A stretch of DNA of 31,216 bases, from IMG/VR virus record IMGVR_UViG_3300010413_000117, positions 1 through 31,216 of that record; one strand, 5' to 3'. The notes beneath the pieces were generated by a model. The model searched no databases. It was not told the origin of the DNA and worked only from the letters and a program-made list of their open reading frames with translations. Below are positions 1 through 25,340 of the stretch, piece after piece. Every line of letters starts with the position of its first letter. Position 1 is the first letter of the stretch. Made by a program: the position numbers and the translations under genes. The DNA comes from a virus.

Positions 1-850
1 CATAAATCGATAGCAATCTTGATTCGTCTACAGTAATTTCTTGGTCACCACCTGAAATTGATAGAGTGTATACTGCATCATACCAAGTCGAATTATCAAT
101 AATTTCAGTAATTTTAGCATAGTATGAATCCACATTACATGCGTCTGCTGCACTTGCTGTAGGTACATATGCCAAAGCAGTACCTGTCAAAGGAGTATTA
201 GATACTCCATCGGCAGCCATAGAAATTGTGAATGCACCTGATAATTGCCCTTTCGGGATAATTATCTGTACCATACCGATTTTGTTTGTGGTTACATCAG
301 CAGAGTTTAGTTGTGTTTCCATTACAAGTTTGATTACTTGTGGAATCATACTTGCTTTAATGGTAAGGCTTTTACCAGTTGATAGATTGGCGGTATAATA
401 ACGCACACACCATGTACCATCTGTTTCTGTTCCTGTTACTGTGAAATCTTTAGTGGTAAAAGTAACTCTCTGTGTTACTCCCAAAGGAGAAGTTGCCCAA
501 CCATATATTGTACTACCTTCGAATGCGATAGGTGTTTCTGAAACCGTACCTGCGCTGGCAGCAACAGTAACAGATTCTTCTTTGTAATAATTACCCAATT
601 CAAAGTCAGCGCCTGCTGTTGCACCCAACATTTCCAGATTCCACTGGGTTTCTGTCAAGTTGAATGACATTTCAGCAGTGTGGTAATAAGTATATTGCAA
701 CTGATTACCACGCCCACCACGAACAGGGGCAGAACCAAGAGAAACTTCAATAGAACTGTCTAGAAGTGTCTTTGCTACAAAGAGTAAGTTATCGTCACTG
801 TCGTAACCGAAAACATCTGCCACACTTGTTAAAAACTTTTTAATAGGCAT
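1..850 (-). CDS. Virion structural protein, 3' end cut by window edge
   Basis: An open frame runs from an ATG at 850 to the left edge with no stop (283 codons visible). The start follows a strong AGGAGG site about 8 nt upstream. The protein begins MPIKKFLTSVADVFGYD and continues with Ser/Thr/Val-rich, mostly beta-type sequence and alternating hydrophobic residues, without membrane segments, cysteine clusters or catalytic motifs that I can see. It sits at the downstream end of the head/neck gene run, after the 261-residue gene, with a 28-nt gap. The composition and place suit a tail tube, tail sheath or other major virion protein, but I do not recognise the family. That it is a real gene is well supported by frame, start site and context; the exact role is open because the C-terminus is outside the window. 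Confidence 0.8.
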   Translation of the reverse strand, partial: MPIKKFLTSVADVFGYDSDDNLLFVAKTLLDSSIEVSLGSAPVRGGRGNQLQYTYYHTAEMSFNLTETQWNLEMLGATAGADFELGNYYKEESVTVAASAGTVSETPIAFEGSTIYGWATSPLGVTQRVTFTTKDFTVTGTETDGTWCVRYYTANLSTGKSLTIKASMIPQVIKLVMETQLNSADVTTNKIGMVQIIIPKGQLSGAFTISMAADGVSNTPLTGTALAYVPTASAADACNVDSYYAKITEIIDNSTWYDAVYTLSISGGDQEITVDESRLLSIY

Positions 851-4716: not shown

Positions 4717-5844
4717 TTATGCCAGTTGAATTACTGCCCCTACTGCGTTTGTAGCAATAGCTGTACCCCAACTCTTGATAATAGTTGAGGTTTGTACAAG
4801 GTTTGCGTTTGCATAAGTGTCGCTTGTGTATGATAGCACCGAACCTTCCAGCACAACCTTTACGATTTTCTGTGAAGATGGGGAAATAATCCATACACGA
4901 CTATCTGATAATTTTAGACCGAAAGGTGTCTGCCAATCAGCAATCTGTGGGAGCACCATAATATCGGTCCCTTGGAAGTTACGCAAGTAACCAACCTTTA
5001 CGAAATCGCTCTGAATATCATAGCGATAGTTTGCATTTGCGGGTAAGATGTTTGCTAATGCGCGCTGTGTACCAATTGCGATTGGTTGTGCACCGCCGTT
5101 CCATGCAGCAACGGTCTGTGAAAGACGCACAAACTCGGATTGTGTATAACCTGCAACACGTAGTCCGGTGCTTGCAGTTGCGTCAACTGCGTCCATTGCG
5201 GTATAGAATGCATCATAAACATCGTTTGCTAAAGCGGTCTCGAAAGAACGATTCATCTTCATTACAAATTCTGCCAGAGATTCCTTTCCGGCAAGAACCT
5301 TCATCAGCGAAACAAACACAGTCATTTCACGAGGTTCGGGTACAACTGTTACCTGTCCTTTGAATTGCTTGTGTAGTTCGGTGGTTCTCTTTGAACGACC
5401 TGCTTTAGATACAACAAATAAGTCACGAGGACTTACGTCAAATGCCGCAGAATCTCCCCAACCAATTGTACGTACATCGGAATAAAGACCAATGCTGTCG
5501 ATAATTGTTTCGGGTAAAATCATATCAATCATTGCTGAGATAACAGCGAATGTTGCCCATTTTAGGCTAGGATGATTTGCCCAAGTTTCGATTGGAAAAT
5601 CTGCAAAATTCTGGATGCCAGCAACGCGCATAATTTCACGCTTTAATGCTGCATTCAATTTTTCCTCTTTCTCAGCAAAAGAAAGAGGCACAACAGCACC
5701 ATCGTCAGTTGTGGTTGTCTTCTGGTATTCTACATTTGTAGCACCATTTAGAGCGCGATAGTGGTTGTAGTAGTCAACAAACATTTTATAAGGTGTTAAA
5801 TTTGCTTCACCTGCGAAAGAAACTACTTGATTCGGAATTTTCAT
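4717..5844 (-). CDS. Major capsid protein (HK97 fold)
   Basis: 375 residues from an ATG at 5844 with AAAAGGAGATAAT upstream. It follows protease/scaffold and a small candidate decoration protein and precedes candidate connector genes, the classic place of the major capsid gene. Composition is typical: a helical N-terminal arm with a charged stretch (KEEKLNAALKREIMRV, about 59-74), a long spine-helix-like segment (KESLAEFVMKMNRSFETALA), and a beta-rich C-terminal half ending in GAVIQLA. These are consistent with the HK97 fold, but the call rests on gene order and overall character, since capsid proteins lack short diagnostic motifs. If the protease acts on this protein, a cut in the N-terminal region would be expected. 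A GC-rich hairpin follows the stop codon, suiting a highly expressed message. Confidence 0.85.
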   Translation of the reverse strand: MKIPNQVVSFAGEANLTPYKMFVDYYNHYRALNGATNVEYQKTTTTDDGAVVPLSFAEKEEKLNAALKREIMRVAGIQNFADFPIETWANHPSLKWATFAVISAMIDMILPETIIDSIGLYSDVRTIGWGDSAAFDVSPRDLFVVSKAGRSKRTTELHKQFKGQVTVVPEPREMTVFVSLMKVLAGKESLAEFVMKMNRSFETALANDVYDAFYTAMDAVDATASTGLRVAGYTQSEFVRLSQTVAAWNGGAQPIAIGTQRALANILPANANYRYDIQSDFVKVGYLRNFQGTDIMVLPQIADWQTPFGLKLSDSRVWIISPSSQKIVKVVLEGSVLSYTSDTYANANLVQTSTIIKSWGTAIATNAVGAVIQLA

Positions 5845-5864: not shown

Positions 5865-6410
5865 TTAAGCCTCTGCAATAACGCATTCTAACTCGTATGC
5901 AGTTACTCTCTGTGTGTTGATAGCGCCAGTAGCAATAGAGATATATTTTGTACCAATCTTCTTATATGCTAAAGCGGCTGTACCCGCAGGAGCGGCAGCC
6001 CATGTTAATTGCATAGCGCCATTAGCTGCAACAGCATAATCATTTACTGTGCCAGTTAATGATTCGCCTGTAAGAAGAATAATATCTCCTACTTTTGGTT
6101 TATATGCGGAAAATACTGTTCCTGATGCATTATAAAAATTGCGTGGATTGGGGTCTAAGCCCTTATATTTTCCATCGGTTGTAACAATTTCGTCACCAGA
6201 GTAAGCCATCCATACATTAAGTAAAGAACCTGTTGCGGGTGCAGCAACATTGAAAACTTCCGCACCACTGCCTGATGCCCATGCTTTTGTTGTGCAATAA
6301 AAAATCATTCCGTTATCAATCGAACTAGCACTTGAAATTACACTCCTATTAAGAGAATCAATGTTCATAGCTGCGATTGCTTCTGGAATTAAAACACCGT
6401 GATAAGCCAT
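5865..6410 (-). CDS. Candidate head decoration protein
   Basis: 181 residues, ATG at 6410, with AGGAGG 9 nt upstream. It starts MAYHGVLIPEAIAAMN and is rich in Ala, Gly, Thr and Val with short beta-type segments (VGDIILLTGESLTG near residue 106) and few charged residues. There is no signal peptide or membrane helix. A small, beta-rich gene between the protease/scaffold and the capsid protein is the usual position of head decoration or stabilisation proteins such as lambda gpD, so that is the likely role. Sequence identity to that family cannot be claimed by eye. The 20-nt gap to the capsid gene suggests cotranscription. Confidence 0.75.
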   Translation of the reverse strand: MAYHGVLIPEAIAAMNIDSLNRSVISSASSIDNGMIFYCTTKAWASGSGAEVFNVAAPATGSLLNVWMAYSGDEIVTTDGKYKGLDPNPRNFYNASGTVFSAYKPKVGDIILLTGESLTGTVNDYAVAANGAMQLTWAAAPAGTAALAYKKIGTKYISIATGAINTQRVTAYELECVIAEA

Positions 6411-6444: not shown

Positions 6445-7101
6445 TTATGATGCCCAAAGGTCATCATTTCTTTTTTGAGTTGTATTTCCAAAAGGCAATC
6501 CAACTCGCTCAACATCTGATTTCTTTGTTTCAAGAATTGCGAAATCAAATGATTTTGCTTTACAATAATTCTTCCATGCTTCAATATTTTCAAGAGTATA
6601 TTTTTCTGCTTCCTCAATCATTTCCTCTTTATCTTCATCTGGAATAATTACCTTTGTTTCAAGTTCTGCGATTGTCTGGTCAATTGCGAATTTCTTCTGT
6701 TGCTGTTCAATCTCAGCCTTGAATTTCTTAAGTTCCTCATTCTCTGCCATATAGACTTTGTTTTCTTCTGCCATCTTTGCGATTGCGGCAGCCATTTTAG
6801 ACATCTTAGCAAATATTCCGCTCATGACAATATTATAGTCGACAGACATTTTATCCTTGCAGAATTCATCCTTTGCTTTTTTGATGTCCTCTTCTTCATC
6901 ATCATCGGCAAATAATTCAGACATTTTTTCCAAAGGAAATTCGAATTTTTCTTCTTCCTCTTCTTCCTCTTCCTTTTTCTCAGGAGAAGCGTCTTCGGAA
7001 AATTCTTCTTCGAGTTCTTCCTTTGGTTCTTCGATTGTTTCGGTATTCTTTTCTTCCTCTTCTGCAAATTCCTCTACAATCTTTTCTTCATCTTTGTTCA
7101 T
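6445..7101 (-). CDS. Nested scaffold protein from internal start
   Basis: Within the protease-scaffold gene, codon 381 is an ATG (7101) preceded by AAGGAG with a 6-nt spacer (GATGATT region), a good ribosome site inside the coding frame. Starting there gives a 218-residue protein made of the Glu-rich stretch plus the coiled-coil C-terminus, without the protease. This mirrors lambda C/Nu3 and similar pairs, where the scaffold is made in excess from an internal start. The acidic, helical composition is what scaffolds usually show. That the site is used is inference from the sequence. Confidence 0.5.
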   Translation of the reverse strand: MNKDEEKIVEEFAEEEEKNTETIEEPKEELEEEFSEDASPEKKEEEEEEEEKFEFPLEKMSELFADDDEEEDIKKAKDEFCKDKMSVDYNIVMSGIFAKMSKMAAAIAKMAEENKVYMAENEELKKFKAEIEQQQKKFAIDQTIAELETKVIIPDEDKEEMIEEAEKYTLENIEAWKNYCKAKSFDFAILETKKSDVERVGLPFGNTTQKRNDDLWAS

Positions 7102-8241
7102 AATCATCTCCTTATTATTGACGATTTCATCCTCTTCCGGTGCGGATGCTTTTACAGTACTACCTTTATTTTTAACCCACTTACCATCTTCTACATGATG
7201 TGTTTTTTTAAATGAACTTATTGCTATAGCCCAACCATTCTTTTCCTTATCTGAACCAACGGATTCGGCTTGTCTAGCAATAGCATTAGCCTGTGCAAGA
7301 GAAACCGGAGGAGTTATACCTTTTATAGCAGGATTAACTTCTGCTTTGGATTTATATGGGAATGTAAGAAGTTCATCATCCAAACGGCTTACCATTCTTT
7401 CAGCCCATTCTTTTGCATAATCCCCTCCCCATAAAAGCCAATCTATATTCTCGCTACTTGGAACATCGGCAATATTTACATTACCATATTTATGTGCAGC
7501 AAAATAGTTGGCGATTTCTCTAATTTTTTCATGGGGTATTGTTTTATTATTAATTAAGTATTTGGCAAATGCCAAACCTGTTGATGTACCCCCGCCATAC
7601 TCTTTTCTAAATTTTAGTCCTTTTTCTGCATTATATTTTACTTTATTTGGAATTATAATATCAGAAAGAGAGAATTCTTTTTCAAAATCTTCTTCGTATT
7701 CTTCTTTTATTTGAGAAAACGATAAGACACTACTCATTGCAGATGGTATTGCGGGAGTAACGAAACTTCCTAATATGGTTACAGCCTCATAACGGAAATC
7801 TGTGAGTTCTGTACCCCCATCTTCTGATTTCTTTGTTTCGTAAACACTCATTTCAACACTGACGGGTTTCTCTCCCCCATCACGCCTGAATATACTTAAA
7901 AGTGGACCAGTATATCTTTTCCACACATATGCGATTGTAGAAAGCATTGTGCGCCCATCTTCTAATTTCCTCGGGGTCACAGATGAACTTTCTGGTACAA
8001 AACCACATGGCACTTCATCGGGGTCATGTGTATATACATCATCCAGTACTTCATCATATTTCCATACAAGAGGACAGTTTTTAATAGTGTCTGCTGTTTT
8101 AAGTAATGTCTCTTCTGAAACATAGAGACGATGCAGATTGTCACCGGAAGCGAAAAAGTCTAAAGCTAAGAGAGCGAAGTTGGAATCAGGATTTTCCTGA
8201 ATCATTTCAACATTTTCAACTGCAAAACTAAGTTTTTTCAA
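6445..8241 (-). CDS. Prohead protease fused to scaffold
   Basis: 598 residues. The start is a TTG at 8241 placed 4 nt after AAAGGAGG. Residues 1 to about 175 look like a phage capsid-maturation serine protease: VYTHDPDEVPCGFV (about 69-82), MLSTIAYVWKRY (99-110), PVSVEMSVY (126-134) and VTPAIPSAMSSVLSF. His72 and Ser128 are my candidate catalytic residues. Residues about 195-282 contain a small domain with GLKFRKEYGGGTSTGLAFA and IDWLLWGGDYAKEWAERM, and about 305-358 a second with NGWAIAISSFKKTHH and DGKWVKN, both often seen in phage head proteins. From about 368 on, an extremely Glu-rich stretch leads into a coiled-coil scaffold-like C-terminus. The enzyme should trim scaffold and capsid arms inside the prohead. 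Confidence 0.85.
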   Translation of the reverse strand: MKKLSFAVENVEMIQENPDSNFALLALDFFASGDNLHRLYVSEETLLKTADTIKNCPLVWKYDEVLDDVYTHDPDEVPCGFVPESSSVTPRKLEDGRTMLSTIAYVWKRYTGPLLSIFRRDGGEKPVSVEMSVYETKKSEDGGTELTDFRYEAVTILGSFVTPAIPSAMSSVLSFSQIKEEYEEDFEKEFSLSDIIIPNKVKYNAEKGLKFRKEYGGGTSTGLAFAKYLINNKTIPHEKIREIANYFAAHKYGNVNIADVPSSENIDWLLWGGDYAKEWAERMVSRLDDELLTFPYKSKAEVNPAIKGITPPVSLAQANAIARQAESVGSDKEKNGWAIAISSFKKTHHVEDGKWVKNKGSTVKASAPEEDEIVNNKEMIMNKDEEKIVEEFAEEEEKNTETIEEPKEELEEEFSEDASPEKKEEEEEEEEKFEFPLEKMSELFADDDEEEDIKKAKDEFCKDKMSVDYNIVMSGIFAKMSKMAAAIAKMAEENKVYMAENEELKKFKAEIEQQQKKFAIDQTIAELETKVIIPDEDKEEMIEEAEKYTLENIEAWKNYCKAKSFDFAILETKKSDVERVGLPFGNTTQKRNDDLWAS

Positions 8242-8261: not shown

Positions 8262-8456
8262 TTATCCTTTGAATAAAGATAACAATTTTAAACCCAAAGG
8301 CATATTATCCAAACACTCTTTTAGCTTTTCTGTATAGGTAAAATAAAAGTAGTTTCTGTCAAAACTTAATAGTGGTATGCCACATTTAACAAGATAGTTT
8401 TTGACATTCTTTTTACATTTGTATTTATTCTCTATTACATTTGGGTTTATTATCAT
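8262..8456 (-). CDS. Small conserved-looking phage protein, 64 residues
   Basis: ATG at 8456, 13 nt after GGAGG; that ribosome site overlaps the last codons and stop of the ferritin gene, so translation is probably coupled. The protein is basic and aromatic-rich: KNYLVKCGIPLLSFDRNYFY and KLKECLDNMPLGLKLLSLF. Four Cys-or-Lys-rich positions are present (Cys14, Cys25, Cys48), but no clear metal motif. I do not recognise a named family. Spacing to the protease gene is 20 nt and composition matches neighbours, so it is likely a real gene. With ferritin, it forms a small insertion between portal and protease. Confidence 0.6.
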   Translation of the reverse strand: MIINPNVIENKYKCKKNVKNYLVKCGIPLLSFDRNYFYFTYTEKLKECLDNMPLGLKLLSLFKG

Positions 8457-8465
8457 TTCATATTC

Positions 8466-8957
8466 TTATCCTCCACAAGAGTCATTCCAAATTTTTACTT
8501 TCCACCATTCGTCTCCGCATAGAAAAGCATTATCCATAAAAGTACTTGCTTCGGCGTATTCGTTTTGTTGCTTCGTAATCATCTCTCTCATTTTTTCTTC
8601 AACAACGGGATTGTTATCCTGAATAGCCAATTTTTTAATTTCATCAATGCTTTTTGTGGTCAATACTTCTCTATTCAAATAAAGGGTGGCTATATCCATA
8701 ATGCTATTAATACCTATTGCTATTCCATCTATTTCAGGAATAGTAACATCAGCATTCAAATCTGTCAACAGGTTCAGGAATTCCATACCATGTCCCATTT
8801 CTTCTCCCTGTTGACCCTCAAAATGTTTAGCCAAATTGTCGAGACCCTTGTTCCTTAAAAAAGCGCATACGAATAAATAAAGATTTGCATTATAAAATTC
8901 GTGTGCAATTTGTTCACATAGCGCATTTCTAAGACTGTCTCCTATTAAACTAATCAT
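8466..8957 (-). CDS. Ferritin with intact ferroxidase centre
   Basis: 163 residues, close to the about 165 of bacterial non-haem ferritins. The first helix LCEQIAHEFYNANLYLF and second-helix motif GEEMGHGMEF match the ferritin pattern. By alignment to E. coli FtnA as I remember it, the iron ligands are Glu20, Glu53, His56, Glu97, Gln130 and Glu133 (FtnA Glu17, Glu50, His53, Glu94, Gln127, Glu130). Ferritins oxidise Fe(II) with O2 or peroxide and store ferric mineral in 24-subunit shells. The C-terminal tail GDEWWKVKIWNDSCGG is unlike FtnA and could be a targeting or docking peptide. The ATG overlaps the portal stop (TAATG) and its GAGGAGG ribosome site lies in the portal's last codons, so expression is tied to head assembly. 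A free cytoplasmic iron scavenger and a packaged cargo are both possible. Confidence 0.9.
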   Translation of the reverse strand: MISLIGDSLRNALCEQIAHEFYNANLYLFVCAFLRNKGLDNLAKHFEGQQGEEMGHGMEFLNLLTDLNADVTIPEIDGIAIGINSIMDIATLYLNREVLTTKSIDEIKKLAIQDNNPVVEEKMREMITKQQNEYAEASTFMDNAFLCGDEWWKVKIWNDSCGG

Positions 8958-10660
8958 TATAATTTACCTCCTCTACCTAAGTTAGACCCCTCAGTACGGG
9001 TTTGTTCTGTTTCTTCTGATATTTCTGAATCTTTCTTACGAGGTCTACCTCTAGAAACAGGTTGCCCATTCTCAGAAACTTCTTGCTGGTTCTGTTGCAT
9101 TTGTTTTGCTTGTTTTTCCTGTTGCTCTAATTGATTTTTCTGAGTCTGTTCCATCATCTTTTCTTGATTCTTCATATTTATTTCAGCCATTTGTTTCTGT
9201 TGTTCAAGAGTTGGTGGAGTAAGCATTTGCATAAAGTCCATTGCGCTTGATTCTTCCATATGTTTTCTCAAATGTGCTGGCTTCATGCCCATAGCGGCAG
9301 CAATTTTTTGTGGTAATACAATGCCTTGATTAAACAGTGTCATAACCGCATCAAGCCTGTTCTGCCTGTTTAAGAAAAAGTCTGTACCTTCAAAAATAAA
9401 GTTGAATTTAAAAGTCCTTGTGAACTTATTACCAAGATAATTCATGAAAACATTGAACTGGTCATACAAAGCGGACATCATCTGCTCATCTGTATTCAAA
9501 CTCAATTGTGTTTCCAATACATTCGGTTTCACATCACTTGTAAATATAAGATTAGTATTCACCCCACTGGACGCAAGCATTGTTTTCAAATAATCGTTAT
9601 ATATTTCATTTTCTGAATCAAAGCTGATACCCTGCATGTCTTCCAATGGTGCGCTTGCCACTTTTATAGATTCAGATATAGCACTTTTTACTAATGCCAT
9701 AAACTTACCCAATAATTCGGGACTGACAGCAATACTATCTTTTACTGTGGCTTTTATTTCTTTATTTAGCATTGGTACTTGCCCAACAATCATCTTACTT
9801 GCCGCTGCCATGTTTGCGTTTTTCTGTAAATTACGCATTAATGGCTGTAGTATCAAGTCGCTGAACAAAGGGGTAAAATATGGCAAGCGTGTTGCCAGTT
9901 CGGGAGTCATTTTGAAGCATACACCCACATCTACGGGCACATCTACCCAATATATCCAACTTGACTTGTCTCGCATTTCGGGAGGCAGAGAGGGGATATA
10001 AACCTTATTTTCTGGTCTATTCCATATTTCCTTATATTTCTTTTTAAAGAAATTCGGGTACATGTTGATATCCACGCCGGGCAATAGAAACCAGTACATA
10101 TTGAAACTGAATAAGAAACCGCCTTCCCATCTACCTGTTATTTTACAATAATCGGCGGGGAGTTCTTGGAGTATTATATTATCGCCCAAGTCTCTTATAC
10201 AACCAAAATAAGCATCATTTCTCAACATTTCTTTTACTGCAATACTCAGTTCTTTTCTATAATCGAATTTGTCGAGAAATGTTTCAACTGCTTTTAAATC
10301 CTTCTTATATTTCGGTGTGCTATAATCTTTAGGTTCTGCACTTGAAGTATATGTTATATCAAAGGAAAGCATATTTGCCATATAGGAAATAAGCCTTTTA
10401 TATACCATTGACCTCAATTCGAAATCCTGCGAGAATTCACGCAGTTGTAATTCACTATCTTTAGGTGCTGCTAGGGCTTTATTTAGTTCATCTTCTGTTG
10501 CCGCCATCGGGTTTAATGTAATATCCCGCATTCTGGCGCTTATTAAATCGGGAGTGAGATACCCCTGCCCATACATTCCTACTATGCTTCTGGCATAAGT
10601 TATAACGTCCCAAACTTCCTGTTCTGTTAATAATATATCATTTATTTGTTCATCAGTCAT
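8957..10660 (-). CDS. Portal protein
   Basis: 567 residues from the ATG at 10660, which has GGAGG 6 nt upstream; an overlapping ATG four bases earlier would stop after three codons. It directly follows the large terminase gene, as portals do. The protein shows portal-like features: helical N-terminus, ELPADYCKITGRWEGGFLFS (about 166-185) in the wing, a long central helix region with MRNLQKNANMAAASKMIVGQ, then SDVKPNVLETQLSLNTDEQM. Residues about 480 to 530 are extremely Gln-, Met- and Lys-rich and likely coiled-coil, followed by an Arg/Lys motif RGRPRKK near the end that resembles an AT-hook and may contact DNA or the prohead interior. Twelve copies should form the DNA channel. Confidence 0.85.
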   Translation of the reverse strand: MTDEQINDILLTEQEVWDVITYARSIVGMYGQGYLTPDLISARMRDITLNPMAATEDELNKALAAPKDSELQLREFSQDFELRSMVYKRLISYMANMLSFDITYTSSAEPKDYSTPKYKKDLKAVETFLDKFDYRKELSIAVKEMLRNDAYFGCIRDLGDNIILQELPADYCKITGRWEGGFLFSFNMYWFLLPGVDINMYPNFFKKKYKEIWNRPENKVYIPSLPPEMRDKSSWIYWVDVPVDVGVCFKMTPELATRLPYFTPLFSDLILQPLMRNLQKNANMAAASKMIVGQVPMLNKEIKATVKDSIAVSPELLGKFMALVKSAISESIKVASAPLEDMQGISFDSENEIYNDYLKTMLASSGVNTNLIFTSDVKPNVLETQLSLNTDEQMMSALYDQFNVFMNYLGNKFTRTFKFNFIFEGTDFFLNRQNRLDAVMTLFNQGIVLPQKIAAAMGMKPAHLRKHMEESSAMDFMQMLTPPTLEQQKQMAEINMKNQEKMMEQTQKNQLEQQEKQAKQMQQNQQEVSENGQPVSRGRPRKKDSEISEETEQTRTEGSNLGRGGKL

Positions 10661-10684: not shown

Positions 10685-12508
10685 TTATACGACCATCGAA
10701 ACGCCGAGGAACTCTAGTTCATCCTCTGAGGCAGTATATCTAAAACCCAATAAATCTATGTCAATTAGAGACACATAATAATTGAGATAACTGACAGACG
10801 TATAGCGGTCTTTTCTTGCCCCGCTAGGTTCTACTAATTTTATTAGCCCATTTGCGGGAGCCATTTCTAGAGCAATACTTTCATTTATCATCAGGCTCGT
10901 TTGTAAGTGTGCCTGTAACAAATATGCTCTAATTCCTGTATCATCTTGGTCTAAAATATCCTTATTTCCAGACTTTATCAAGAATTCCTCTTCCGTGTTA
11001 TCGTCCACAAGAAAAGTAATAAGTTTTTTCTTTAGTCTTTCTCTGAATTTAACAGCGATAAGAGAATTCAACTGTGCAGTAGCAGAAATAGGGTATATGC
11101 ATTGCAGAGCATCCTTTCCTAATGTTCTTAAAGTTAGTTCATCATATACGCTAGTGTCTACATACATTGAATTCATTACCGTATATGGTCTATATTCCAG
11201 CCCTCTTATTTCATCTTTTGTGACAGAAGAAAGGGCATCGAATACACTTATACCCGCATTTTGCAGGTCAAGCACAAGGGCATCCCCTTGAAATTCTTCA
11301 TATATTTGTTTTATACGTAGTGCCTGTAAATTTGTATTTTTTCCATTATGAGATTCCATATAGACTATTTCTGTCAACCAACCTTTGCGGCTAGGGTATA
11401 ATCTTGCACAACTTATAATTGTATTGTCATTTGTTGACCCTGCCCTCATAGCCACGTCTACAGAAACAACTCTCATTTCATCTGATAACTTTGGTATATC
11501 ATATGGATTTTTCTTTGTTGTCAAAAATGTTTCATCTCTGATTGGTCTCCAACTTCTCTTTATCGTCCTGTTAAATAAACCTAATTTATAAAAAGACAGG
11601 TTTGAAGAGCCATATGGTATATTCCCATACTCCATCAAGAACGTAATTGGGTCAAGATTTTGTTTTTCTCTTACCATCTGTTTCTTTGTCTTTATACCGT
11701 GATGGATTGAGATTGGATAATCCAAGAACATCCCTTTTGTGTCGGGGTCACCATCAGCAATCATTCTTAAAAATTTCTTTGTCTCAGGATACCACTCATA
11801 ACTCTTGAAATGGGCACTTGTAATAATTATTTCTTGTGGTTCTTCTTTCAATTCGTCAATCTGTGCATATTCGGGAAATTTCATGTAAGGCGCTTGCCTG
11901 CTTACAAGGAAGGGACGTATAACGGAATCAATAACTTCTGTTTCTATCAGTCTTCTTTCTTCTAATACGGTTACATGACTTCTATGCCCTCTACCGCCTT
12001 CACCAGAAACAACAACGTTTATTTTAGAACCATTGTAGAATGTCATTTCCCATTTGTTCTGATTTGTTACAATATTAGAACATTCTCTGGCAATATTGGG
12101 GTGTTCGTCTCGGAGTGCTTTGCACTTTTCTGAAATAATAAGTCCCGCCTGTGCTTTGGTTGACGAGGCTAGAGCAACTATTGTACCCGGATAAAGGATA
12201 CATCTTGCAATAGCATAAACACCAATAAGCCAAGATTTTGCGCTTGCACGAGAGGCAATACCCACAAACTCGGTACATCTTGTCATAAGGTTCAGCCAAA
12301 ATCTTTGGTAGGGGTAAAGAGGAATGTCAAGATAATGCTCTACAAAAAAGCATATATTAGACCTGTAAAACGTTACCCAACTTTTGATGCGGTCCCGCTT
12401 TGCCTTTGTCATTTCCTCTTCGCCAATGAATTTCAATGGTTCATTAGCCTTGCTATAATGTTTCATATTTCTAAGAGGAGGATGTGTAGTTCTTTGTTTT
12501 TTAGCCAT
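10685..12508 (-). CDS. terL: Terminase large subunit
   Basis: 607 residues, ATG at 12508 after TGGAGGAAAAGT. The N-terminal ATPase shows a variant Walker A at about 85-92 (ASRASAKS, with Lys91) and a Walker B-like VTVLEE at 179-184, where the usual Asp-Glu is Glu-Glu. A coupling-motif-like EIIITSAH follows (about 226-233). The C-terminal nuclease has VVSVDVAMRAG (Asp351) and ALVLDLQNAG (Asp414), two of the metal-binding acids of the RNase H-like fold. It cuts concatemeric DNA and drives it through the portal. It lies between a zinc-ribbon candidate small subunit and the portal, with 20-25 nt gaps. Family recognition is firm; the Walker B change may be a lineage feature. Confidence 0.93.
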   Translation of the reverse strand: MAKKQRTTHPPLRNMKHYSKANEPLKFIGEEEMTKAKRDRIKSWVTFYRSNICFFVEHYLDIPLYPYQRFWLNLMTRCTEFVGIASRASAKSWLIGVYAIARCILYPGTIVALASSTKAQAGLIISEKCKALRDEHPNIARECSNIVTNQNKWEMTFYNGSKINVVVSGEGGRGHRSHVTVLEERRLIETEVIDSVIRPFLVSRQAPYMKFPEYAQIDELKEEPQEIIITSAHFKSYEWYPETKKFLRMIADGDPDTKGMFLDYPISIHHGIKTKKQMVREKQNLDPITFLMEYGNIPYGSSNLSFYKLGLFNRTIKRSWRPIRDETFLTTKKNPYDIPKLSDEMRVVSVDVAMRAGSTNDNTIISCARLYPSRKGWLTEIVYMESHNGKNTNLQALRIKQIYEEFQGDALVLDLQNAGISVFDALSSVTKDEIRGLEYRPYTVMNSMYVDTSVYDELTLRTLGKDALQCIYPISATAQLNSLIAVKFRERLKKKLITFLVDDNTEEEFLIKSGNKDILDQDDTGIRAYLLQAHLQTSLMINESIALEMAPANGLIKLVEPSGARKDRYTSVSYLNYYVSLIDIDLLGFRYTASEDELEFLGVSMVV

Positions 12509-13770: not shown

Positions 13771-16700
13771 TTATTCTCCTATCACTTCAAATACACGTTC
13801 ATCTTTATAAACAATGTAAGGTAGCGCAGGAGGTGTAATATAAACTCTATATTCTTTTGGAATCCTGTATACACGGTCTTCCGCTGCTATAACTATATTT
13901 CTAATTTCTTTTGGAATTATATATCTTCTAAATTCGGGTATCTCATTTATAGGATATAACGGTTTAAATATTATTATTATCTTATCTGATGTTAATGCAT
14001 GAGTAGAATTATTAACAATAAGTACGTAATGCTGTACCAGATTGATATTCTCTGATGTTAAGATATGTGTGCTATCTTGTATACCAAGTACATTAGTGAA
14101 TATGATTGTTATATTATCGGAAGTCAGTACATGTGTACTGTCATTTACAGACAGAACATAACTTGCAGAAATATCAATATTATCCGAAGTGCAAATATGA
14201 GTACTGTTATTTACAGTTAATATATAATGTGCCAATAACACGGGTGCAGTTGACACCAAAGTATGTGTTGTATCCTGCGGGGTTATGGTATAATGTGCAC
14301 TCAGATTTACATTTTCCGATATTAATGCATGAGTACTGTCATTTGTTATTAATACCCCTGCAACCGCTAATGTGATAGTATCAGAAGTGAATGCGTGTGT
14401 AGCATCCTGTACAGCAAGTACATGGTGTTGTACAAGTGAAATACTTTCAGAAGCGAGTACTTGTGTACTATTATTTACATATAATGCACCATAAGGATGA
14501 TGCACTAAAGCAATATTATCTGATGTTAGTGTATGAGTCGAATCGTTGACAGATAATACATAGTGTTGTACCAGAGCAACATTATCAGAAGTCAGTACAT
14601 GAGTGCTGTTATCAGTTACTATTGCACCAACACCGTAAGCAACAACGTCTATGTTATCGGAAGTGAGTACATGTGTTGAATCCTGTGTTTCAAGTACATG
14701 ATATTGTACAAGTGCAATATTATCCGAAGTCAGTACATGTGTAGCATCAACGGCTATTATCTGCTCTCCCGCTGGATGGTATATCAGTGTTAAGTGTTCG
14801 GATATATCCAATGGGAAATACAACGAAGGTATACCATATTGACCAAAATATTGTTCAGTCAATATATAATCATTGATATATGATGTTACCTGTCTTGGTT
14901 TTTGTATATGACTTGCATCGTTTACTGTGATAAGGTAAACATTTATTACAGATATATTGTCAGAAGTCAGTACATGTATTGAATCCTGCACTACGAGTAC
15001 ATGATGTTGTACAAGTGCAACATTCTCTGAGGTCAATATATGACTACTATTTTGTGTAACGAGTAGTCCTGCCATTGCCAAAACAATGTTATCCGAAGTC
15101 AAAATGTGACTTGCATCGTTGACCGCTAAAACATGATGTTGTACCAAATCAATATTATCAGATGTTAGAATGTGAGTGCTGTCATTTGTGGATAACAGAT
15201 AATTTTGGGTAAGGTCAACGTTTTCGGATGTTAGAACGTGCGCACTATCATCTACCGATAATAGATAGTTTTGTACTAAATCTATGTTATCGGAAGTCAA
15301 AACATGTATGCTATCATTTACTGACAACGTATAATGTGCGCTCAAATCAACATTATTTGAGGTTAAAACATGCGTGCTGTCATTTGTTGACAGAGTATAA
15401 TGTGCACTTAAACTGACATTATCTGAGGTCAAAATATGGGTGCTATCATTTATTGACAATAGATAATTTTGAGTTAATTCTACATTATCAGAGGTCAATG
15501 CATGTGTAGCATCATTTGTAGTTATTGTATAATGTGCGCTCAGACTTATATTATCGGAAGTGAGCACTTGCATACTATCGTTTACCGTTAGAGTAAAGTA
15601 AGTATGTAATGTTATATGAGGGGTAAAGCCTAATGGGTAATACTCGATAGGTACAGCATATACACCGAAGTATTGCTTTCTAAGTATATAATCGTCTTCT
15701 TTGGTGTCCGCAGGCATTGACTTCATACCATGCGTACCATCATCAACAGTAAGAACTCCGGCTAAACCTAATATGATATTTTCAGAGGTTAGTATCTGTG
15801 TACTGTCGTTTACCGACAAAACTTGGTGCTGTGTAAGGTTTACATTCTCTGATGTCAAAACATGCGTAGAATTGTTTACTGTCAAAGCACCAACAGTGTG
15901 ATGCACAACGTCTATATTGTCTGATGTCAATATATGAGTGCTATTATTGGTTGATAATATATGATGTTGTATTAAAGCAATATTGTTGGAGGTTAAAACC
16001 TGTGTTGCATCATTAACCGTTAGGACATAATTCTGTACCAAATCAATATTGTCAGAAATTAAAACTTGTGTTGCATCATTATTTGTTAGTACATAATTCT
16101 GTACGAGGTCTATATTATCGGATGTTAGAATATGGGTAGCATTATCCACTGTTAAAGCGCCAGCAAGGTGCTGTACAACAACTACGTTATCCGAGGTCAA
16201 TACATGGGCACTATCATTGGTTGCTAAAACATGATGTTGAGTTAAAGCAACATTGTCAGATGTTAGTGCTTGTGTTGAGTCATTTACTGACAAAGTATAA
16301 TTCTGTGTTAATTCTAATGGAGTAGTATACCAGACTATTAGTTTAGGACGGTAGCCTGTTGTGGCATGGTCGGATGAACCAAAATAAATAACTTGACTTG
16401 GCGTCCAAAATATCAGACCATAGTTATTACCATCAACCCAATCCTGCACTTGGGATACGTTTAATGATATGTTATATTCTTGCCCAGTTCCATGTGTTTC
16501 TAAAACAGATATACTACCAAGTTGCGTGGCGTTATAATCTGTTCCAGATGTATTGCAACCAGCACTACCCGCCCAAGCTGTTGTGCCAGTCTGGTAACTC
16601 CAACATGCTCCCAGTTCTGTCCAGCTTGAATTTCCCGACAATAATACATGAATAGGTAATGTCAAATCATAAAGCGGATTACGCGATGAATAAAGATATA

Positions 16701-17829
16701 AATTAGCTGAATCGACTGTTGCACCGCTAATCGAACTTACATCGAACTTTATTAATGGTCTTTGCGTATAAGTAGAGTTGGCATTACATTCAAGCTCGGT
16801 ATCTGTGCCAAAATTATCTTCCGGTACATCCTTCTCCAAGAAGGTATCATACGCCGTGTTAACATCTCCCCCATAGCCATCAATAAACCTGTATTTGTTG
16901 GTGTTATGTAAATGAGTAGCATCCTGTACCGTTAATGGAGGGCTACGTGCTGTTACCGTTATATTGTCGGATACTAACACATGCGTAGCATCCTGCATGG
17001 TCAATGTTTCTACTCCCGCATACACCAATACAATGTTGTCGGAGGTCATTGCATGTACGGCGTCATTTATTGATAACACATGATGTTGTACTAAATCTAT
17101 ATTGTCTGAAATCAAGACCTGTGTCGAATCTACAGGACTTGATAAATAATTTTGTATAAGAGCAATATTGTCAGAGGTCAGTGGTTGCGTAGAATCTACC
17201 ATTGTAAGAACAGTTGCACCACCCGCAAAAGATATAGTATTAGGGAATTCAATCCAAGGATTTACACCATCAGCAGTACTATAATCCGTAGCCTCTGCGT
17301 CTGTGCTCTGGTCATCACCAAAGCGTATATGCCCATTGTGGTTACCAGCAGGAGTGGGGTCACCTCCATATCCTATTTCGATAACAAGTCTATCATTGGC
17401 TGAAACAGTTCTTGCTGTAGTTGTTGTAGAAAATGCTCTGATTTGTGCGCCTGTACTTGATAACTCTATATCATCATGTGTTAATGTTGTAGATAATAAA
17501 TCCTGAAACGTGCTTGCCCCATCCCAAGACCTGATACTTATGGTTATATTTAGATTATTGGCACTTGAACCTTCATCACAACCTATTGCCATTGTAACAG
17601 TTTGTGATGAAATGGTTTGTGCTGCCAAAGGTTCTGATACAAATTGTCTGAATAAAATATCTAGGTCAGTGCTATCGGAATCACTGAATGCTATATCTGT
17701 AAGTGTCGTGCTTGTCTTTGTAGTTACAAGGTCAATACGTGCCGCAATACTTGTATTATCCCATGCTGTATTATAAGCAGGGCTTACAGAAGGCGTTCCT
17801 GTATATGGAAGGTAAAATCTGGTAGCCAT
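13771..17829 (-). CDS. Giant 22-residue-repeat adhesin with DNRLRE domain
   Basis: 1352 residues, ATG at 17829 after TGGAGGTGAAATAAC. Residues 1-205 form a beta-rich cap starting MATRFYLPYTGTPSVSPAYN, a type I associate with phage surface proteins. Then come about 34 copies of a roughly 22-residue unit with consensus DSTHVLTSDNIxLVQHxVLxVN. Four copies precede a domain at about 312-505 that looks like a DNRLRE/CBM96-type carbohydrate-binding fold (VPEDNFGTDTEL, RPLIKFDVSSI, SQVQDWVDGNNYGLIFW, YRPKLIVWY). Two related spacers, about 703-745 and 970-1024, carry DDYILRKQYFGVYAVP and NDYILTEQYFGQYGIP. There is no signal peptide or membrane segment. The likely role is a long fibre or surface binding protein; the repeat probably makes an extended beta stack, but that is inference. 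Confidence 0.82.
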   Translation of the reverse strand: MATRFYLPYTGTPSVSPAYNTAWDNTSIAARIDLVTTKTSTTLTDIAFSDSDSTDLDILFRQFVSEPLAAQTISSQTVTMAIGCDEGSSANNLNITISIRSWDGASTFQDLLSTTLTHDDIELSSTGAQIRAFSTTTTARTVSANDRLVIEIGYGGDPTPAGNHNGHIRFGDDQSTDAEATDYSTADGVNPWIEFPNTISFAGGATVLTMVDSTQPLTSDNIALIQNYLSSPVDSTQVLISDNIDLVQHHVLSINDAVHAMTSDNIVLVYAGVETLTMQDATHVLVSDNITVTARSPPLTVQDATHLHNTNKYRFIDGYGGDVNTAYDTFLEKDVPEDNFGTDTELECNANSTYTQRPLIKFDVSSISGATVDSANLYLYSSRNPLYDLTLPIHVLLSGNSSWTELGACWSYQTGTTAWAGSAGCNTSGTDYNATQLGSISVLETHGTGQEYNISLNVSQVQDWVDGNNYGLIFWTPSQVIYFGSSDHATTGYRPKLIVWYTTPLELTQNYTLSVNDSTQALTSDNVALTQHHVLATNDSAHVLTSDNVVVVQHLAGALTVDNATHILTSDNIDLVQNYVLTNNDATQVLISDNIDLVQNYVLTVNDATQVLTSNNIALIQHHILSTNNSTHILTSDNIDVVHHTVGALTVNNSTHVLTSENVNLTQHQVLSVNDSTQILTSENIILGLAGVLTVDDGTHGMKSMPADTKEDDYILRKQYFGVYAVPIEYYPLGFTPHITLHTYFTLTVNDSMQVLTSDNISLSAHYTITTNDATHALTSDNVELTQNYLLSINDSTHILTSDNVSLSAHYTLSTNDSTHVLTSNNVDLSAHYTLSVNDSIHVLTSDNIDLVQNYLLSVDDSAHVLTSENVDLTQNYLLSTNDSTHILTSDNIDLVQHHVLAVNDASHILTSDNIVLAMAGLLVTQNSSHILTSENVALVQHHVLVVQDSIHVLTSDNISVINVYLITVNDASHIQKPRQVTSYINDYILTEQYFGQYGIPSLYFPLDISEHLTLIYHPAGEQIIAVDATHVLTSDNIALVQYHVLETQDSTHVLTSDNIDVVAYGVGAIVTDNSTHVLTSDNVALVQHYVLSVNDSTHTLTSDNIALVHHPYGALYVNNSTQVLASESISLVQHHVLAVQDATHAFTSDTITLAVAGVLITNDSTHALISENVNLSAHYTITPQDTTHTLVSTAPVLLAHYILTVNNSTHICTSDNIDISASYVLSVNDSTHVLTSDNITIIFTNVLGIQDSTHILTSENINLVQHYVLIVNNSTHALTSDKIIIIFKPLYPINEIPEFRRYIIPKEIRNIVIAAEDRVYRIPKEYRVYITPPALPYIVYKDERVFEVIGE
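13965..17205 (-). repeat. About 34 tandem 66-bp coding repeats
   Basis: Consecutive units of about 66 bp encode (D/N)(S/A)T(H/Q)xLTSDNIxLxQHxxLxxN. The protein consensus is tight at LTSDN/LTSEN, but the DNA copies differ widely in third positions, so the array is not a recent amplification of identical units. Breaks occur at the DNRLRE domain (about 16,320-16,890) and at two spacers near 15,600-15,720 and 14,760-14,920. Some units are lengthened by two residues, for example those ending GALTV. Low nucleotide identity would reduce recombinational loss while keeping length and fold. Confidence 0.9.
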
Positions 17830-17870: not shown

Positions 17871-18422
17871 TTATGAAATTACGATATCTGTCCTGTTACC
17901 GTTGGAATCTACGGTAGCAACAACTCTGTCTGTACCGTCTCCCAAGTCTCTAAAGGTGATTGTACTTGTACCACCGCCGCTTACCTTACCCGCCATTACT
18001 GCCGCCATTATTTGTAATACAGCCTGAAAATCATATGTGCTATCGATTGTGGTATTCAATAAGTCATCTGCGTTCACGTTGAGTAAATCTGTACCCATCA
18101 TTGAATCATATACATTGGCAGGTACTACCATCCATGCATCCCAAACGGGCAATGCGCCAGCTTCATGTACTGCTAATTGCAATATGCCTACTGTACCTGT
18201 ATCAGTGGCATCTAAATTACATGTGTACCAACCGGGCAAATTTGTATCAGAAGTAGCACTACTGGCTTCATTCTTTGCTGTATAAGCCCCGCCGTTTTTT
18301 GATAAATAAATATCGGTATTCGTGAGGGTCAACCCACCTTCCGCTGTTTTACCGTCTGTATCGTCAAGGAATTCTCCAATCATAACTGTAACTGCGGTGC
18401 TTTGTTTTAAAAATCCGCTCAT
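17871..18422 (-). CDS. Fibre- or baseplate-associated phage protein
   Basis: 183 residues, ATG at 18422 overlapping the stop of the 390-residue gene (ATGA), with AAGGAG inside that gene's last codons. It begins MSGFLKQSTAVTVMIGEFLD and contains TDIYLSKNGGAYTAKNE, GWYTCNLDATDTGTVGILQL, ALPVWDAWMVVPANVYDSM, a pattern I recognise from a common phage protein near fibres, of BppU-like beta-sandwich character. The C-terminal 30 residues (TITFRDLGDGTDRVVATVD) look like a separate small beta unit. It likely links or decorates fibres. There is no catalytic motif. Confidence 0.75.
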   Translation of the reverse strand: MSGFLKQSTAVTVMIGEFLDDTDGKTAEGGLTLTNTDIYLSKNGGAYTAKNEASSATSDTNLPGWYTCNLDATDTGTVGILQLAVHEAGALPVWDAWMVVPANVYDSMMGTDLLNVNADDLLNTTIDSTYDFQAVLQIMAAVMAGKVSGGGTSTITFRDLGDGTDRVVATVDSNGNRTDIVIS

Positions 18423-19591
18423 AGTTTACTCCTTAGTCTTTTATAATGCATCATTTGTCTTGTACACCCACCGCCGCCTAAAAATATGTTATCTGAATAT
18501 AATGTTTGTATTGCGTTAAACATTACTAATACAATATTCATATTTGTCAAGAGAATATTTTCAGAAGTCAATGCCTGTGCCGAATTATATATAGTTAAAC
18601 TATATTGTGGCGGGTGATAAGTTATACTTACATTATCAGAATTTAATAATTGTGTTGAATCATCTACTGCCAGCAAATAATTCTGTACAAGGGTTATATT
18701 TTCACTTGTAAGCAGTTGTGTAGAATCATTGCTTACCAAATTAAGTGCTAATGATAATGAAATACTATCCGAAGTTAACGCCTGTGTCGCATCATTCATT
18801 ACCAATTGATATGTGGGTATGTGCCCAACCACAATTACATTATCAGATGATAATAATTGTGTCGCATCATTGCTTGTTAATATTGTGGGTGGTAAGTGTG
18901 CTGTAACAAGTATATTATCGCTTGTCAATGCCTGTGTTGCGTCTGAAATTGTGAGGGTATAACTTTGTGATAAATCTATATTATCACTTGTTAATACTTG
19001 TGCAGCGTCATTGGTTACAAGGGCTTGATGTTGCACGAGCGCAATATTATCTGATGTTAATGCTTGGGTTGCACCATTAGTTGTTATAGATGCGCCTTTC
19101 AAAACAGTGACGGTGGGGTATATTGTATACCCCGAAAGTCCAGATGGTCTTATGGCAATCGTATCACTGTTAGCAACATCCGTACCTATAATTTGCAGTG
19201 AGTATTCATGCTCCACTTGCTGTGCGCTCACGTTTATAGCGGTAGGGACAGCATCATGTGTACCTTCTCCGCCAGCAAAGGGATTAGTTGCAACTGTAAG
19301 AATGTTGGTTGTAGCAGCGCCATCTGTAAATTGACTGGATGCAACTGCCCTTACGATGCTGGAACTTGTAGTGATTTGATTCCAAGCACCCCCGTTCCAC
19401 GAGAGTTCAATATATCCGTAGTTCTGGAATAATTTGTTGTTTTGTTCCTCGGTTTCCATACGGATACGAAAAACAACATTAACTGCCTGTGACCAGTTGG
19501 TATTCTGGTTATAATTAAATGTTGTAGAGTTCAGGGTCTGTGTATCATCACGTCCACGATAAGCAGTTAGGGTACAATAAGTAGATGTCAT
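18419..19591 (-). CDS. Second repeat protein, shorter paralogue of the adhesin
   Basis: 390 residues, ATG at 19591 overlapping the upstream stop (ATGA); GGGGAGG lies 7 nt upstream. Residues 1 to about 165 form a beta-rich head domain (FNYNQNTNWSQAVNVVFRIR, YIELSWNGGAWNQITTSSS) different from that of the 1352-residue protein. Residues about 165 to 375 hold about nine copies of the same 22-residue unit, here usually with Gln (DATQALTSDNIxL) in place of the His found in the large protein. The C-terminus GGGGCTRQMMHYKRLRSKL is basic. It is probably a second surface fibre; the shared repeat shows common origin of the stalk with exchange of the head domain. Confidence 0.8.
   Translation of the reverse strand: MTSTYCTLTAYRGRDDTQTLNSTTFNYNQNTNWSQAVNVVFRIRMETEEQNNKLFQNYGYIELSWNGGAWNQITTSSSIVRAVASSQFTDGAATTNILTVATNPFAGGEGTHDAVPTAINVSAQQVEHEYSLQIIGTDVANSDTIAIRPSGLSGYTIYPTVTVLKGASITTNGATQALTSDNIALVQHQALVTNDAAQVLTSDNIDLSQSYTLTISDATQALTSDNILVTAHLPPTILTSNDATQLLSSDNVIVVGHIPTYQLVMNDATQALTSDSISLSLALNLVSNDSTQLLTSENITLVQNYLLAVDDSTQLLNSDNVSITYHPPQYSLTIYNSAQALTSENILLTNMNIVLVMFNAIQTLYSDNIFLGGGGCTRQMMHYKRLRSKL
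18480..19080 (-). repeat. About nine 66-75-bp coding repeats, Gln-type
   Basis: Same repeat family as in the 1352-residue protein, with consensus (D/N)(A/S)TQxLTSDNIxL. Unit length varies more here (about 22 to 25 residues) because of insertions such as AHLPPTIL and GHIPTYQL. The position after Thr is nearly always Gln, whereas the large protein mixes His and Gln. Confidence 0.85.
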
Positions 19592-21341: not shown

Positions 21342-22154
21342 TTATCTAGTATATATCTTCAATTTACCCGTTTCAATTATAAAACTATCGTTTTGTTTTA
21401 TATTTACAGAACCGGATAAAGGAATTTTGAATAAAAGATTTCCTCCTGAACCGGAATCATAAATCATAATGCCTTTTATCGTACCCCAATCTAAAGGCGC
21501 TTGTTGTGTGAAAATCAGAGACCCCGTATTCATTGTTGAACCTGCTATTGGTTCTGCCCAACTCCCGCTCCCTCCCCAAGGAATTCTACAATAGCCAACA
21601 GAGCCAGTTATTTCTGTATTATTTGTCCTGTATAAAGAAATATATACATCTTCATTGGGGGATGGATAATTGACATCATTTAAATAATGTTCCAATATAT
21701 TATTTGCGAGGTATTCTTCATATCCCGAGAGAGTTAAATGAAGGTTTCCGGTTTTTACAAAAACAATACAATCAGTATTTACATAACGACAGGGGCTTAT
21801 TCTTCCATAAAAATATATATTTCCTAAATCTTCCATTCCCGAGCCTGTTCCCACTCCAAAAGCATATATAGAACCCCAATCATGATAACATGGCGGAAAT
21901 GCGGCAGAAGAGGTTGTCATTGTAGCTTTACAGGCTGAAATTGTCCACGAACCGCTAAGGTCAAGACGTTCATAGCCAGTAAAATAATAAGGGTTTAATC
22001 CCACTTCAGAGGCAGATGAACCTGTAAAAGTTTCATCAATGTATCTAAACAAACCCATGCGACAGATGCTGCCAGGTATACTTGCGCTTCTTAATGCGTG
22101 ATTGATAACAGTGTTCCCAAAGAAATAACTTATTCCTGAACCACTTGTAATCAT
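21342..22154 (-). CDS. Two-domain fibre-like protein, paralogue 5
   Basis: 270 residues, ATG at 22154 after AGGTGAAAAA. It has two copies of a roughly 130-residue domain. Each starts with an Asn-rich helix of the N-x-x-L/I-x-H-x-L type (NTVINHALRS; NNILEHYLND), has a short-chain strand (MGLFRY; ISLYRT), an SGS-type turn and a DWG motif (HDWGSIYAFGV; DWGTIKGIMIYDS), and ends in a lipophilic strand. Similar domains occur widely in phage virion or tail-fibre proteins. It is the last of five such genes and is the shortest. Confidence 0.78.
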   Translation of the reverse strand: MITSGSGISYFFGNTVINHALRSASIPGSICRMGLFRYIDETFTGSSASEVGLNPYYFTGYERLDLSGSWTISACKATMTTSSAAFPPCYHDWGSIYAFGVGTGSGMEDLGNIYFYGRISPCRYVNTDCIVFVKTGNLHLTLSGYEEYLANNILEHYLNDVNYPSPNEDVYISLYRTNNTEITGSVGYCRIPWGGSGSWAEPIAGSTMNTGSLIFTQQAPLDWGTIKGIMIYDSGSGGNLLFKIPLSGSVNIKQNDSFIIETGKLKIYTR

Positions 22155-22162
22155 TTTTTCAC

Positions 22163-23122
22163 CTATAGATAAACAGTTATATCACTATCGTTTACAAAAT
22201 GAAAAGAATCTCCTGTAATAACAGTAACATCCATGCCGTCCAAACTTCCTTCAAACTTGCTTATTAATAATAGTTCTCCTTCGTCTCCCGAGTGAGAACC
22301 ACTTGTAATCATCAATCCGCCGCCTTCTATATGTCCCCAATCTTCTGTAGCATCTTGAACATGCATAATACTGGCAGATAGATATGCTCTACGATTAGAA
22401 TCATCCCATACTGATTGCCATTCATCGGGTCCGGCAATTCTTTTTCTTTCATATCCTACAGACCCACTTATTTCTCTACCGCCACTTCCTGTAATTGAAG
22501 GAAGTTCATTATAAAAAACGAGATATAATGACATTCCGGGTTTAAAATAAAATTCTCTATTATAAATATAATTTAATAATTTATTGCTAGAATTATATAT
22601 CATTCTTTGTTGTGTTCCGGTTGGTCCTTCTTTTAAAGAAAGTTCTGTTAAAAGACCTCCGGTAGGGATACTAACTTTATAGCCATTATTCACTAAAAGG
22701 GACGGCGATAGTTTGGAATAAAAATATATTATTCCTTCACCTATTATGGATGAACTTACTAAACCAACATAAGCTACATATCCCCAATCTGTAGTTGCTA
22801 TAGGAAATTTTATTTGTGCAGTATTATAACCAATGCCGCTTCCAACTATCCAATTTTTATTAAGTAAAAAATTCTCACTATAAATATTTTGATTTATATT
22901 GGTTGCTATTAGTGCTTCTTCTAATTGCGTTTGACTTGCGCTCATTCGAATATAACCGCCCCCGGATACTTCTGACCCCGCTAAATTTATATGATAGTTT
23001 GATTCGGTTGTAGTTACCCAAGATGCTGTATATAAGGCGATATATAGTGGAGGAGGATAAAAATTTTTGTTATACAATAAAAGTTGTAGAAAAGAACCGG
23101 AAACATCTGGATTCGTAGCCAT
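22163..23122 (-). CDS. Two-domain fibre-like protein, paralogue 4
   Basis: 319 residues, ATG at 23122 with CAGGAGGAATGAT upstream. First domain: YIALYTASW, GGYIRMSAS, FPIATTDWGYVAYVGLVSS. Second domain: NKLLNYIYNREFYFKPG, SLYLVFYNELP, REISGSVGYERKR, ATEDWGHIEGGGLMITSG. This is the same two-domain plan as its neighbours, with longer insertions in both halves. The start overlaps the end of the 109-residue gene by a few bases of spacing (2 nt gap). Confidence 0.78.
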   Translation of the reverse strand: MATNPDVSGSFLQLLLYNKNFYPPPLYIALYTASWVTTTESNYHINLAGSEVSGGGYIRMSASQTQLEEALIATNINQNIYSENFLLNKNWIVGSGIGYNTAQIKFPIATTDWGYVAYVGLVSSSIIGEGIIYFYSKLSPSLLVNNGYKVSIPTGGLLTELSLKEGPTGTQQRMIYNSSNKLLNYIYNREFYFKPGMSLYLVFYNELPSITGSGGREISGSVGYERKRIAGPDEWQSVWDDSNRRAYLSASIMHVQDATEDWGHIEGGGLMITSGSHSGDEGELLLISKFEGSLDGMDVTVITGDSFHFVNDSDITVYL

Positions 23123-23123
23123 A

Positions 23124-23453
23124 TCATTCCTCCTGAATAAAGTATATTAATACATCTCCCCACATCTGGAACATTCCTCTGCCTTCATCTACGTAATCTG
23201 CCCTTGTTCTAGCACAGCCACTAGAAGTAAAACAGGCTGTAATGAGAGGAAGAACAATAGGAATAGAGGGTATAGGAGTAATCTCTGCATCGGGATTTAT
23301 TTCTATTGTAGCATTACCAATTAGAGTTGCCAATCCGGGTATTATTTCTGTTTCCCAATAGATAGGAAAAACATTAAAAACATATGTATTTTCCATTTGT
23401 ACATTATAAGAATTAAATATTGTCGGAAATATGTGTGTTCTTGTAATTGCCAT
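23124..23453 (-). CDS. Small virion-block protein, paralogue of the gene at 20,612
   Basis: 109 residues, ATG at 23453 after TTAGAGGAGAAAAAAT. The first 50 residues match the 106-residue protein at 20,612 (ETEIIPGLATLIGNATIEI). The second half is different: ITPIPSIPIVLPLITACFTS, then GRGMFQMWGDVLIYFIQEE. The duplicate lies between paralogues 3 and 4 of the two-domain family, suggesting that it was copied along with fibre genes. No function recognised. Confidence 0.75.
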   Translation of the reverse strand: MAITRTHIFPTIFNSYNVQMENTYVFNVFPIYWETEIIPGLATLIGNATIEINPDAEITPIPSIPIVLPLITACFTSSGCARTRADYVDEGRGMFQMWGDVLIYFIQEE

Positions 23454-23478
23454 ATTTTTTCTCCTCTAATAAATTCTT

Positions 23479-24303: not shown

Positions 24304-24311
24304 TTTTGCCT

Positions 24312-25328: not shown

Positions 25329-25340
25329 GTTTTCCTCCTA

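Follow-up and report, generated by a model that had tools for sequence, protein, structure and literature searches.

What is a ferritin gene doing in the head operon of a phage? The question is raised by a 31,216-nucleotide stretch of viral DNA (positions 1 to 31,216 of IMG/VR record IMGVR_UViG_3300010413_000117, hereafter the window), in which an open reading frame located among head genes (Table 1) had been described, in an initial annotation made from the letters alone, as encoding a full ferritin. This description is confirmed by a match to the Pfam Ferritin profile PF00210 (E = 7.6e-19; 68.5 bits against a gathering cut-off of 24.5), by matches to PDB ferritins from archaea and bacteria (E-values down to 1e-10) and by an AlphaFold2 (AF2) model with five helices, A to E, and a pLDDT of 95.7 (a single-chain prediction from a 20-sequence alignment). 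The six ferroxidase ligands said to be kept, E20, E53, H56, E97, Q130 and E133, are all present together with Y27 (E17, E50, H53, E94, Q127, E130 and Y24 in FtnA numbering), and all seven residues are invariant in 27/27 de-replicated phage ferritins, which form the two clades A and B described below, and in 73/73 sampled cellular ferritins. The dN/dS values of 16 pairs of phage ferritins, obtained as simple Nei-Gojobori counts with dS saturated in several pairs, were 0.05–0.13, except for one pair with 0.28. The low values indicate that the reading frame is a real gene and that it is under purifying selection; taken together with the invariant ligands, they make the window protein very probably a working ferroxidase.

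Table 1. Features of the head operon of the window (positions in the window; helices in residues of the ferritin).
Feature	Position	Strand	Basis or remark
Major capsid protein	4717..5844	-	phrog_4088; 40% identical to annotated PMBT24 major capsid protein
181-aa head protein	5865..6410	-	one or two copies in relatives
Putative prohead protease fused to scaffold-like C-terminal region	6445..8241	-	phrog_3313 (unknown function), E = 1.3e-18
Conserved 64-aa protein, far edge of slot	8262..8456	-	homologues in the family's viral-contig loci
Ferritin (clade A), 163 aa	8466..8957	-	PF00210 E = 7.6e-19; AF2 pLDDT 95.7; invariant ligands
Helix E and C-terminus codons (WWKVKIWNDSCGG), the "Trp-rich tail"	8466..8507	-	AF2 helix 151–161; alignment with 73 cellular ferritins
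Ferritin helices	A 7–36, B 40–66, C 86–113, D 117–147, E 151–161		AF2
TAATG junction, read on sense strand	8955..8959	-	portal stop and ferritin start share one base
Portal protein, 567 aa	8957..10660	-	phrog_2739 portal, E = 9.9e-52
Terminase large subunit	10685..12508	-	phrog_2, E = 1.7e-14

By its sequence, the protein is a genuine classical (Ftn-type) non-heme ferritin with a complete di-iron ferroxidase centre. The five-helix fold, the ligands, the tyrosine and the length are common to it and to bacterial and archaeal Ftn (P. furiosus, A. fulgidus, T. maritima, E. coli FtnA), from which the phage proteins differ by W151 and the loss of two site-C glutamates (both in clade A) and by an aromatic residue at position 157. 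Against the E. coli FtnA equivalog (NCBIfam PRK10304) the window ferritin scores 24.6 bits, with a threshold of 178. In bacterioferritin (Bfr), which has a heme-binding Met, a His replaces the second helix-D Glu, whereas the window protein has the Ftn-type Q130 and E133; Dps has an inter-subunit ferroxidase site and no helix E, whereas here the ligands are intra-subunit and helix E is present.

The C-terminus is where the phage ferritins depart from the cellular ones. The Trp-rich tail had been proposed to be a docking peptide, a reading that we reject, since the phage VALWDASIGG aligns with the cellular helix E pattern GLFMLDRELGKR with the Asp mostly kept, and the segment is predicted to be helical. 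W151 is found in 21/21 phage rows that have a residue at this position, including all clade A rows, and position 157 is W, F or Y in phages and mostly L, M or I in cellular ferritins. Alignment and model thus agree in identifying the tail as a helix E that phages have remodelled, rather than an added peptide. In the AF2 model the chain ends two residues past helix E, and an encapsulin-type C-terminal targeting peptide after a linker was not found in the window ferritin. Two positions of site C, 129 and 132 (FtnA E126 and E129), carry Glu in 73/73 and 72/73 cellular ferritins; both are non-Glu in most phages, with Glu at position 129 in 6/27 phage rows. In the window, E52 (FtnA E49) is kept, and K129 and N132 replace the other two glutamates. 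On this alignment two site-C glutamates, present almost without exception in the 73 sampled cellular ferritins, have been lost from clade A. By analogy with SynFtn-type ferritins, which have no site C (PMC7762939), this absence would not bar membership of the ferritin fold family. SynFtn of marine picocyanobacteria has, by its published description, a ferroxidase centre without the full site C, like the window ferritin, which differs in keeping the site-C residue E52 and the shared E133.

The genes of the operon follow one another on the sense strand in the order 316-aa protein, terminase, portal, ferritin, 64-aa protein, protease/scaffold-like protein, 181-aa protein and major capsid protein. 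The reported overlap of the ferritin start with the portal stop codon was borne out: the final base of the stop codon is the first base of the ATG, and an AGGAGG ribosome-binding site lies ca. 9 bases upstream of it, inside the end of the portal gene. In relatives the portal-ferritin spacing ranges from -3 to about 900 bases, and in the sequences compared the 1-base overlap is not general. The placement of the ferritin between portal and capsid protease holds on the portal side; on the other side the conserved 64-aa gene intervenes. The name "protease" is itself putative and relies on a motif (invariant H72 and S128, the latter in PVSVEM) and on gene order, without a family match.

Relatives of the locus were collected by an IMG/VR search with the portal, which gave 68 loci, and by ferritin searches, which added more. 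The same neighbourhood recurs, as had been proposed for checking, in many viral contigs, where ferritin relatives occupy a lineage-specific slot bounded by the portal gene and the conserved 64-aa gene; each of 11/11 long contigs with ferritin has one copy, in this slot. The 64-aa gene is found in the family's viral-contig loci whatever the slot state and was not recognised in named cultured phages. On a tree of 49 distinct portals including that of the window (three loci, L031, L034 and L037, were assigned by hand), the slot holds ferritin A in 22 cases, ferritin B, ca. 25–30% identical to ferritin A, in 6, a ligand-less protein of ferritin fold in 4 and another gene in 6, and is empty in 11; the ligand-less cases include cultured Enterocloster phages. 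Besides a GIY-YIG endonuclease (L051), the other genes encode a phrog_6660 protein of 163 aa and two kinds of protein of unknown function, of 107 and 313 aa. We rejected chance acquisition or an annotation artefact as the origin of the gene, because its neighbourhood is conserved in relatives and the gene is under selection.

The slot state changes 15 times on the portal tree, compared to a minimum of 4 and to 24.5 in shuffled data, and pairs of close relatives place the edges of the exchanged DNA at the gene ends. Loci L015 and L020, of sister phages, carry ferritin A and ferritin B, respectively; they are 84–85% identical in DNA on both flanks, up to the ferritin start and again from its last bases, and the DNA between the flanks has no match. 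Loci L003 and L039 are 80–88% identical on both sides of the ferritin gene (ca. 460 bases), which is absent from L039. Loci L010 and L012 are 97% identical overall and 78–87% at and just past the ferritin 3′ end, which suggests local recombination. Taken together, the state changes, the clean A/B swap and the clean presence/absence make ferritin, at the level of sequence, an optional, swappable cassette and not an essential head structure. The idea that tight coupling to portal translation marks a necessary role in the head is thereby weakened, since some relatives lack the gene or have another instead of it, with clean edges and with the neighbouring genes unmoved. Homing endonucleases (GIY-YIG, LAGLIDADG) are found around the terminase, portal and ferritin genes in several relatives and may drive slot exchange. 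In locus L004 (1290-4216) a LAGLIDADG endonuclease ORF splits the terminase gene, as in an intron or intein-like insertion. A sugar-nucleotide epimerase-like gene lies upstream of ferritin in locus L086 (1768-2790), and the slot is thus able to take up several accessory genes. The phrog_6660-family slot protein of loci L060 (5551-6042) and L063 ends in SLWGDL, resembling the scaffold C-terminus of the phage family.

In an unrooted tree, ferritin A and ferritin B each form a monophyletic group (100/98 and 100/96), and together they are separated with 100/99 support from the 73 sampled cellular ferritins, a sample that comprises Thermotoga-like ferritins and the best matches from ca. 800 genomes of two phyla. 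Within this limited sample, a recent capture from a host is without support.

Slot proteins of the same length as the ferritin are also found in loci L033 and L095–L098 and in cultured Enterocloster bolteae phages, whose gene order is that of the window head operon. The slot protein of one of the latter, PMBT24 (WDQ45549.1), carries the name ferritin in the published genome (PMC11035940), with a Pfam Ferritin match of only E = 0.09; it shares slot, gene order and a remote ferritin ancestry with the window ferritin and differs from it in lacking the equivalents of E97, Q130 and E133. These three ligands are replaced in the ligand-less family (proteins of L033, L095, L096 and the cultured Enterocloster phages PMBT24 and CB473P1), and the helix A and B positions are ambiguous. 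In a PDB profile search the family matches an Archaeoglobus ferritin with E = 5e-6, and nearly all its other matches are ferritins. The AF2 model of the L033 protein has low confidence (pLDDT 61.9) and the helix order of a ferritin; the 50 best PDB fold matches of this low-confidence model are all ferritins (E from 3e-3, probability 0.98–1.00), and its closest counterparts among viral models are uncharacterised siphophage proteins. Direct profile-profile comparison with ferritins is weak (hhalign probability 21%), and the ferritin link of the family is carried by the PDB profile and fold searches. Since these matches coincide with replaced ligands, part of the phage family has probably retained the ferritin fold in the slot but not the iron site.

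The phage family has head genes of the Enterocloster PMBT24 and Brevibacillus Sundance type, and its cultured relatives infect Bacillota. A tblastn search of cultured phage records with clade A ferritin gave no match, and one with clade B ferritin matched two unannotated Staphylococcus-named records; when GTDB genomes were scanned with the portal, no relative was found.

The reading that we favour, with a probability of about 0.55, is that of a late-expressed iron and oxidant sink, a cage that oxidises and stores iron in the infected cell and is encoded by an exchangeable slot cassette. We infer its timing, assembly, catalysis and benefit as follows. The ferritin would be co-transcribed with the head genes and hence made late; with its fold and intact helix E it would assemble into a cage, which would take up Fe2+, oxidise it with O2 or H2O2 and lock the iron away, so that less Fenton damage would reach the replicating and packaged DNA and the assembly proteins until lysis. 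Iron sequestration and Fenton protection are the functions that fit best. That the ligands are retained in clade B, a distant ferritin that serves as a replacement, argues that ferroxidation is the selected trait. SynFtn, which belongs to the ferritins without site C, has been tied to a suggested stress role (PMC7762939), and Gratiaviridae and other gut phages carry the ferritin-superfamily enzymes Dps and Mn-catalase, for which a role in tolerance of oxidative stress has been suggested (PMC8008677). The Dps and Mn-catalase are of families other than that of the window ferritin; those phages likewise have an accessory gene located between the portal and the capsid genes, there a HipA-like kinase and not a ferritin. 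The rubrerythrin hits in 15 related contigs were the ferritin itself and nothing else, and these contigs thus give no sign of a wider stress kit. Anaerobic ribonucleotide reductase, sought as a clue to the host, was present in 2/15 contigs, both without ferritin. A cell-protective enzyme leaves unexplained both the fixed place beside the portal and the ligand-less fold in the same slot of some members.

The fixed position between the portal and the protease/scaffold gene speaks for virion cargo, that is, for ferritin packed in the prohead with the scaffold and carried or ejected by the mature particle, so that the DNA or the next host would be supplied with iron or with anti-oxidant capacity. 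We regard this, the main rival reading, as unlikely. Encapsulins, which have HK97-type shells, load ferritin-like cargo, and their shell genes lie near ferritin-superfamily genes, as in the window (PMC8346489); unlike an encapsulin system, the window codes for the complete head module of a phage, terminase and portal included, and for a ferritin without a targeting peptide. A hydrophobic-Trp-polar end is common to the scaffold C-terminus (SLWD, DDLWAS) and to the ferritin tail (LWDAS), a sequence likeness that is a lead only: the scaffold motif occurs in phages without ferritin, the Asp of the tail is ancestral, and the tail is helix E with nothing after it. In known 24-mers the four-fold axis is where helix E is found, and the C-terminus points to the cavity. 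A Foldseek search with the ferritin model retrieved proteins of 763, 432 and 333 aa named "prohead protease" from uncultured Caudovirales phages (E 0.02–0.03), matches that suggest Dps-like domains fused to head proteins; these are weak leads, and the putative fusions are known by name and fold match only. Long "prohead protease" proteins matching the ferritin fold, possible Dps-protease fusions, are BFVD entries A0A6J7WPK9, A0A6J7WIS1 and A0A6J7XDU5. The clean absence of ferritin from L039, a close relative with intact flanking head genes, stands against a cargo function. No virion proteomics was found, and the text of the PMBT24 paper (PMC11035940) has no virion mass spectrometry. A bolder version is more doubtful still: slot proteins of ferritin fold would enter the prohead, possibly through the scaffold-like hydrophobic-Trp-Asp end, the virion would be a ferritin-loaded HK97-type shell, and the ligand-less members would be descendant internal head proteins.

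About as doubtful is a use of the ferritin fold as a structural part of the assembling head or in regulation, where ferroxidation would be secondary or would have been lost; the ligand-less slot proteins of ferritin ancestry suit it, whereas clades A and B retain every ligand and 11/49 portal lineages have no slot gene. Least probable is a cage that deprives the host or a competing phage of iron, or one that keeps a store of it to be released after lysis: iron binding is common to all active ferritins, and papers using the Ferrojan Horse idea propose phage-iron interaction, but the site-C Glu loss of clade A would not be expected of a storage-optimised ferritin, and no other iron gene was recognised nearby.

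Ferritin-like genes are known in phages: a Dps-like protein of Lactobacillus phages has been published (PMC6669764), and viral model sets contain other phage ferritins. No description of a conserved head-operon ferritin slot or of its exchange was found in the open-access literature, and such a conserved, swapped slot seems to be undescribed in the literature searched. Here, a position-specific slot has repeatedly received ferritins, in two distant ligand-intact clades and what is probably a ligand-less offshoot. Through it one can test whether phages handle iron and oxidants in the late phase of infection, and whether ferritin is ever carried by phage heads, from which encapsulin shells likely descend; the Enterocloster phages offer a cultured entry point for the ligand-less form only.

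Other genes of the window include those for 1352-aa and 390-aa proteins (13771-17829 and 18419-19591) with a repeated motif like LTSDNIxLVQHHVLSVNDSTHV, and a series of Ser/Gly-rich proteins of ca. 270–340 aa (21342-26276) that are alike and apparently paralogous. A Recombination endonuclease VII-type protein is encoded at 26707-27153 (PF02945, E = 6.5e-24). The 921-aa protein encoded at 28165-30930 has a DFDGD motif, matches Pfam RdRP PF05183 (E = 1.3e-8) as well as phrog_8308, and has the appearance of a phage-encoded RNA polymerase.
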